The translations under genes were made by a program, and so were the position numbers. The notes under the pieces are model-generated. The model ran no database searches. It saw only the letters and a program-made list of their open reading frames with translations, and was not told the origin of the DNA. Positions 2,052 through 63,689 of a stretch of 64,000 nt of DNA are shown piece by piece. How positions within the stretch are numbered: position 1 is the first letter of the stretch; every line of letters starts with the position of its first letter. The stretch comes from Siphonodentalium dalli (Eukaryota > Mollusca > Scaphopoda > Gadilida > Siphonodentaliidae): contig CP136063.1 in assembly GCA_032622095.1 (NCBI GenBank), positions 186,289,956-186,353,955 of the forward strand, written 5' to 3'.

Positions 2052-2140
2052 CCAGCAGTCAACCTGGCAGTGAAGATGACTCTGAAGAAGATATTGACTA
2101 TGTACCAATAGTGCCACCAGTGGATGATGACTGGAAAAAG
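2052..2140 (+). CDS. MIER1: MIER exon a (acidic patch, DDDWKK)
   Basis: The exon enters with the last two bases of a codon and leaves in phase 0 before GTTTGT. It codes for [18 protein letters not shown] then [11 protein letters not shown], matching the acidic block just before ELM2 in MIER proteins. The acceptor TTACAG at 2046-2051 is my choice; CAG sites a few bases further in are also possible. Confidence 0.85.

Positions 2141-63689: not shown

Follow-up and report, generated by a model that had tools for sequence, protein, structure and literature searches.

A DNAI4, MIER and SLC35D gene block in a lophotrochozoan genome and its probable bilaterian ancestry

Two genes of the MIER and SLC35D families lie tail to tail in the window, the stretch of 64,000 nucleotides analysed here (G000:C3:186289956-186353955, from a genome of 2.23 Gb in 9 contigs). 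The initial annotation took them for an ancient bilaterian gene pair, which raises the question of whether this order has descended from the bilaterian ancestor and, if so, what has kept it. The conservation of MIER and SLC35D held up, but the unit proved to be three genes rather than a pair: a DNAI4/WDR78 gene to the left of the window, on the minus strand, forms a head-to-head pair with MIER. A block inherited from the bilaterian ancestor is the best explanation overall, with a probability of roughly 0.85; its retention through regulation is proposed more tentatively.

Positions are given relative to the window (Table 1), and negative values or values above 64000 lie in the flanking sequence around it. 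The DNAI4, MIER1 core and SLC35D1 queries and the human proteins in the tree described below are not database sequences. At E≤0.1 these queries gave 14, 5 and 8 matches, respectively, in the 244-kb region, each set being colinear and confined to a single strand as expected. The same 244 kb reversed (not complemented) gave 0 matches with each of the three queries at that threshold. Within the window tblastn placed the MIER exons on the plus strand and the SLC35D exons on the minus strand, with weaker rows (E above ∼0.1) elsewhere in the window too, and the exon edges of both genes were set manually after tblastn with human proteins.

The MIER reading frame comprises 465 residues in nine exons (-3234 to 15329) and runs past the left edge of the window. 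All eight introns between these exons are GT-AG. Both ELM2 (43.4 bits against a cut-off of 21.7) and MIER1_3_C (28.8 bits against 27) score above the curated Pfam cut-offs, which places the predicted plus-strand gene in the MIER family. At E≤0.001 it matched 12 related sequences in the PDB, which are corepressors (RCOR, MTA, RERE and the mitotic deacetylase-associated SANT protein). By phmmer, residues ∼204-276 align to RERE, MTA1 and RCOR chains in parts that we take to be SANT; the Pfam SANT models all stayed below cut-off. When the genome was searched with MIER, nine of nine matches fell at the window locus.

The SLC35D gene is complete, with 11 exons encoding 322 aa from a start codon at 68643 down to a stop at 43558, GT-AG at 10 of 10 introns and a Pfam TPT score of 65.4 bits (cut-off 30), and it extends beyond the right edge of the window. 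The initial annotation had let the pair run from 2052 to 63689; these positions coincide exactly with exon edges, yet both genes run further. Over the aligned parts, identity to the human sequences was 57% for D1 (304 positions), 48% for D2 and 29% for D3. The tree that the initial annotation had proposed for separating SLC35D1/D2 from D3 gave the anticipated result: among seven rows, the window gene grouped with human D1/D2 (96/98) and a gene at C5:105.88 Mb with SLC35D3 (99/97), while no branching order was fixed among the window gene, D1 and D2. The window gene is thus predicted to be a D1/D2 orthologue and not the D3 paralogue. A genome search at E≤1 returned 15 matches, of which 10 were the gene's own exons and 5 were weak matches elsewhere (24-30% identity). 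One of its introns holds a reverse transcriptase fragment (RVT_1, 57077-57517, minus strand, 47 bits).

The two stops are 28,228 bp apart, and 42% of the intervening sequence is similar to other sequence in the 244 kb, in keeping with the initial description of the insert as repeats. Likewise, the tail-to-tail arrangement with no recognised gene in between was borne out by the splice-clean models and by a Pfam search in which none of the 25 stop-to-stop frames of at least 80 aa between the stops passed the cut-off (four gave sub-threshold matches). The gap had no tRNA and no Rfam matches. No segment of it reached a codon score of 9, a weak scan since just 2 of 20 known exons pass that threshold, and a small multi-exon gene may lie inside the gap.

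Several kinds of repeated element were seen in and near this gap. A MITE-like palindromic element of ∼200 nt with inverted arms occurs on both strands in several copies at 24112-41961 and also at ∼2452-2729 (families D2, D5, D7 and D11). Another recurrent element, with the core CGCATATATAAGAGAATGCATTGGC, is present in at least 12 copies at 17592-43116; similar chance reading frames recur because these copies often form inverted pairs. A 170-bp unit stands in four tandem copies at 31352-32031, copies 2-4 being 82-96% identical to the first.

The gene to the left of MIER was matched by the human DNAI4 query, which gave 24 rows at E≤20 in the 244 kb, 14 at E≤0.1 and the other ten at E≥0.91. All 14 of the former follow one another colinearly on the minus strand, residue 115 of the query falling at -31986 and residue 824 at -76157. 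An exon piece of 51 residues hit the human DNAI4 chain 8j07_k2 (E 3.9e-7) and also IC138, a chain of the I1 dynein; a second exon, with WD repeats, hit human DNAI4 at 3.8e-15 and DNAI1 only at ∼1e-5. For both exons the top row was the chain 9fqr_Hx, labelled CFAP100, which scored slightly higher and aligns like DNAI4. In a genome search with the WD part of DNAI4, the best 3 of 18 matches belonged to the window-flank locus and the other 15 had at most 43% identity. The next-best matches, on the same chromosome at G000:C3:156308134, 24949689 and 216109865 (43, 40 and 28% identity), may be other dynein intermediate chains. Given its colinearity over the protein, the left-flank gene is identified from sequence as DNAI4/WDR78 rather than another dynein intermediate chain. 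WDR78 is now called DNAI4 and belongs to the subunits of the axonemal inner-arm dynein I1/f (excerpt of PMC8754002).

Between DNAI4 and MIER the nearest verified coding exons are ∼17 kb apart, a distance that a DNAI4-like frame near -30.4 kb, itself unverified, would narrow only slightly. Neither the first exons nor the transcription starts of the two genes could be placed in this interval; a candidate DNAI4 first exon near -17.4 kb was dropped, the match being interrupted and weak (E 4). In CpG content, the best sliding window near this interval (at about -20000) ranks only 23rd in the 244 kb.

Table 1. Positions of the three genes and of the gap between MIER and SLC35D, relative to the window
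Feature	Position	Strand	Basis or remark
DNAI4/WDR78 matched exons	about -31986 to -76157 (G000:C3:186257969 down to 186213798)	-	
MIER N-terminal match	about -14661..-14542	+	further 5' exon left of window
MIER exon	-3234..-2982	+	left of window; GT-AG junctions
MIER intron, part	1..2051	+	
MIER exon, acidic stretch	2052..2140	+	AG/GT junctions, open frame
MIER exon, ELM2 start	4534..4603	+	tblastn, junctions, Pfam ELM2
MIER exon, ELM2	5916..5972	+	tblastn, junctions
MIER exon	8595..8692	+	tblastn, junctions
MIER exon	10643..10724	+	tblastn, junctions
MIER exon, putative SANT part 1	11857..11951	+	tblastn, junctions
MIER exon, putative SANT part 2	14136..14263	+	tblastn, junctions
MIER last coding exon with stop	14804..15329	+	tblastn, junctions, Pfam MIER1_3_C over cut-off
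Tail-to-tail gap	15330..43557	.	28.2 kb, 42% self-repetitive, no gene recognised
SLC35D last coding exon with stop	43558..43660	-	
SLC35D exon	46336..46418	-	tblastn, junctions
SLC35D exon	51420..51566	-	tblastn, junctions
SLC35D exon	53962..54054	-	tblastn, junctions
SLC35D exon	55107..55209	-	tblastn, junctions
SLC35D exon	58427..58495	-	tblastn, junctions
SLC35D exon	59108..59179	-	tblastn, junctions
SLC35D exon	60987..61054	-	tblastn, junctions
SLC35D exon	62180..62266	-	tblastn, junctions
SLC35D exon 2	63656..63689	-	splice junctions
SLC35D exon 1 with start codon	68534-68643	-	right of window; tblastn

Among the human neighbours tested, only DNAI4, MIER and SLC35D appear to be conserved together here. 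Extending the block to SERBP1 failed, with both of the two SERBP1/HABP4-family matches on C9, and so did extension to WLS, for which all 13 WLS-type matches lie on C1 and C9. The sole Vps55/LEPROT-type match is on C3 at a distance of 75 Mb, and of 16 Tctex-1 (DYNLT5 family) matches none comes closer than 25 Mb to C3:186 Mb. A first search of the genome for the ELM2 family had also found nothing, though the ELM2 of MIER is present, because this domain is split over exons and was missed by an exon-wise search; the same caution applies to the empty haemocyanin and erythrocruorin linker searches described below.

The next recognised gene to the left of DNAI4 is an HSP70 on the plus strand (about -86342 to -84453), and the first recognised gene beyond SLC35D is a single-exon ligand-gated channel, also on the plus strand (116864-118009, Neur_chan_LBD 154 bits). 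Presumably neither is a neighbour of the human trio. The HSP70 is an open single-exon frame (Pfam HSP70, 858 bits) alongside an inverted, broken second copy on the minus strand in several pieces, the whole occupying -88769..-84453. In the right flank there is a further RVT_1 reverse transcriptase fragment (105574-105047, minus strand, 52 bits).

Elsewhere in the genome, C7 carries a Hox cluster (76.99-78.82 Mb) of lophotrochozoan-type content: by our own labels its members include Post1- and Post2-like genes, Lox4/Lox2-like genes and a Lox5 type whose homeodomain is followed by a KLTGPD peptide. This content would fit the mollusc that the initial annotation thought probable, but also an annelid or another lophotrochozoan phylum; searches for molluscan haemocyanin and for the annelid erythrocruorin linker came back empty, an uninformative result. 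Within the cluster, two homeodomain exons at a distance of 47 kb share their orientation and have identical translations (G000:C7:77673389-77673589 and 77720567-77720767), either a recent tandem duplication or an assembly duplicate. When the bacterial and archaeal contigs were scanned for stray animal DNA, the single match (L037) was spurious, a long frame on a GC-rich bacterial contig that by eye we take to be a membrane pyrophosphatase.

For human, we take WDR78, MIER1 and SLC35D1 to be strictly consecutive on the minus, plus and minus strands, with the starts of WDR78 and MIER1 head to head and nearly abutting. The proximity of MIER1 and SLC35D1 at 1p31.3, which the initial annotation had noted, is documented in excerpts of two papers: a three-gene locus at chr1:67278568-67519782 includes both genes (PMC5517429), its third gene probably being WDR78, and one 1p31.3 deletion contains C1orf141, IL23R, MIER1 and SLC35D1 (PMC7049181). 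The genes of one locus are given as LEPR, PDE4B, SGIP1, AL139147.1, TCTEX1D1, INSL5, WDR78 and MIER1 in an excerpt of PMC11412739, a list that appears to run in map order. On dromedary chromosome 13, WDR78 (13:51.72-51.80) and SLC35D1 (13:51.87-51.92 Mb) have 70 kb between them (excerpt of PMC11446216). Alphabetical lists in two further excerpts name MIER1, SLC35D1 and SERBP1 in a 1.5-Mb region of chicken chromosome 8 (PMC8469556) and MIER1, SLC35D1 and WDR78 (PMC1877820), the latter being uninformative on order.

The last ancestor shared by protostomes and deuterostomes very probably already carried DNAI4 (-), MIER (+) and SLC35D (-) as a block, because chance would hardly yield the same order of three orthologues in both a lophotrochozoan and human. 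Each of the three genes has its only strong genome match at this locus. They are consecutive as far as recognised, the frame-by-frame gene scan having covered the MIER-SLC35D gap, and span about 145 kb. With about 20,000 genes assumed and the human strands given above, independent assembly of such a trio in human and in this lineage has a chance of ∼1/(4 x 20,000^2), or ∼10^-9, for one gene and of ∼10^-5 for any gene, and the orthology of SLC35D to D1/D2 rather than D3 also speaks against it. What can be said for chance is that only two lineages are compared, that the gene order just outside the trio differs from human, and that shuffled genomes give some blocks under looser definitions (excerpt of PMC8851819). 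Under a looser definition the vertebrate ancestor inherited only 70 blocks, against 110-124 in shuffled genomes, which counsels caution on single vertebrate matches (same excerpt). Comparing human with this genome, an independent assembly is nevertheless unlikely, and we regard chance as a highly improbable account of the trio. Descent from the bilaterian ancestor, as originally suggested, is well supported by the D1/D2 clade, the single strong loci and the continuation of the order by DNAI4. The order of the trio would have been kept since that ancestor, as would its orientation if the human strands are as given above.

Conserved microsynteny itself is a known phenomenon, and the trio may well be in an existing list. 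The listings and paper excerpts searched do not describe the trio or the pair as conserved between phyla. Ancestral bilaterian microsyntenic blocks are defined in an excerpt of PMC8851819 by at least three orthologues with at most five intervening genes; in this genome the trio qualifies with no intervening gene recognised, and it keeps order and, with the human strands given above, strand, which goes beyond what that definition requires.

What has kept the order is less clear-cut. An axonemal dynein subunit, an HDAC-binding transcriptional repressor and a nucleotide-sugar transporter have unrelated jobs, so the order would most likely have been kept by cis-regulatory entanglement. Promoter elements could be shared or interleaved on the head-to-head DNAI4-MIER side, with SLC35D carried as a bystander and the slow rearrangement of lophotrochozoan chromosomes as a help. 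We propose a regulatory cause for the DNAI4-MIER part tentatively, at slightly worse than even odds. That the block is locked bilaterian-wide by a shared DNAI4-MIER regulatory domain, with ciliary and corepressor promoters inseparable and SLC35D dragged along, is unlikely.

The repeat content of the two gaps bears on this question. Repeats were called by similarity to other sequence inside the 244-kb region only, with overlapping, non-independent sliding windows, in a single stretch of a single genome. On this measure the tail-to-tail gap is average (0.415; an equal or lower value in 579 of 864 sliding windows), and the head-to-head gap falls where the 244-kb region is poorest in repeats, in a trough (0.171; an equal or lower value in 24 of 907 overlapping sliding windows). 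Constraint, if any, would thus be on the head-to-head side. The eight lowest sliding windows all overlap this trough, yet are centred to the left of the DNAI4-MIER gap and cover DNAI4 exons too.

Selection might instead act on the tail-to-tail MIER-SLC35D arrangement itself, through shared termination or antisense overlap. The same order and convergent orientation in human would agree with this, but with the stops 28 kb apart and repeats at an average level the two genes could overlap at their 3' ends only if their untranslated regions were very long, and the gap bears no sign of constraint; we consider it improbable. The order could also have been inherited without any selection, the trio being among those orders that were never broken, as expected when chromosomes rearrange slowly. 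The unrelated functions of the genes fit such a history, as does the ordinary repeat load of the MIER-SLC35D gap, and since the other tested 1p31 genes are scattered, the trio could be a lucky survivor. In the excerpt of PMC8851819, lophotrochozoans largely retain bilaterian-ancestor blocks, and low recombination alone, with no function involved, is left as a possible cause of block retention. Of the blocks that date from the bilaterian ancestor, on the other hand, vertebrates have lost 84% (same excerpt), so that survival on the human side would be uncommon, and the repeat-poor DNAI4-MIER gap is a further point against an unselected order. Inheritance without selection is a serious possibility, if not quite an even bet. 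For blocks in general, the excerpt leaves open whether regulation or low recombination causes their retention.

On the DNAI4-MIER side, the distance speaks against a simple bidirectional promoter. Such pairs would have starts within ∼1 kb, and the nearest verified coding exons here are ∼17 kb apart. The interval between the two genes is possibly more than 10 kb in this genome; in human it is presumably near zero. The head-to-head orientation found here, as in human, is nonetheless that of the ancestral bidirectional promoter pairs in an amphioxus study, an excerpt of which counts 372 bidirectional promoters of chordates as putatively ancestral, most of them lost in vertebrates (PMC6292497). 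With genomic regulatory blocks as in the excerpt of PMC8851819, the trio shares unrelated functions held together and long introns; it differs in having no evident developmental target gene.

What the analysis adds is the step from a pair to a trio and the difference between the two gaps, which within one block suggest opposites, the head-to-head gap being poor in repeats and the tail-to-tail gap not. A collinear three-gene order is apparently common to a lophotrochozoan and human, here in a repeat-rich genome of 2.2 Gb with wide intergenic gaps. Such trios let one ask whether gene order that has lasted so long is maintained by regulation or has simply never been broken.
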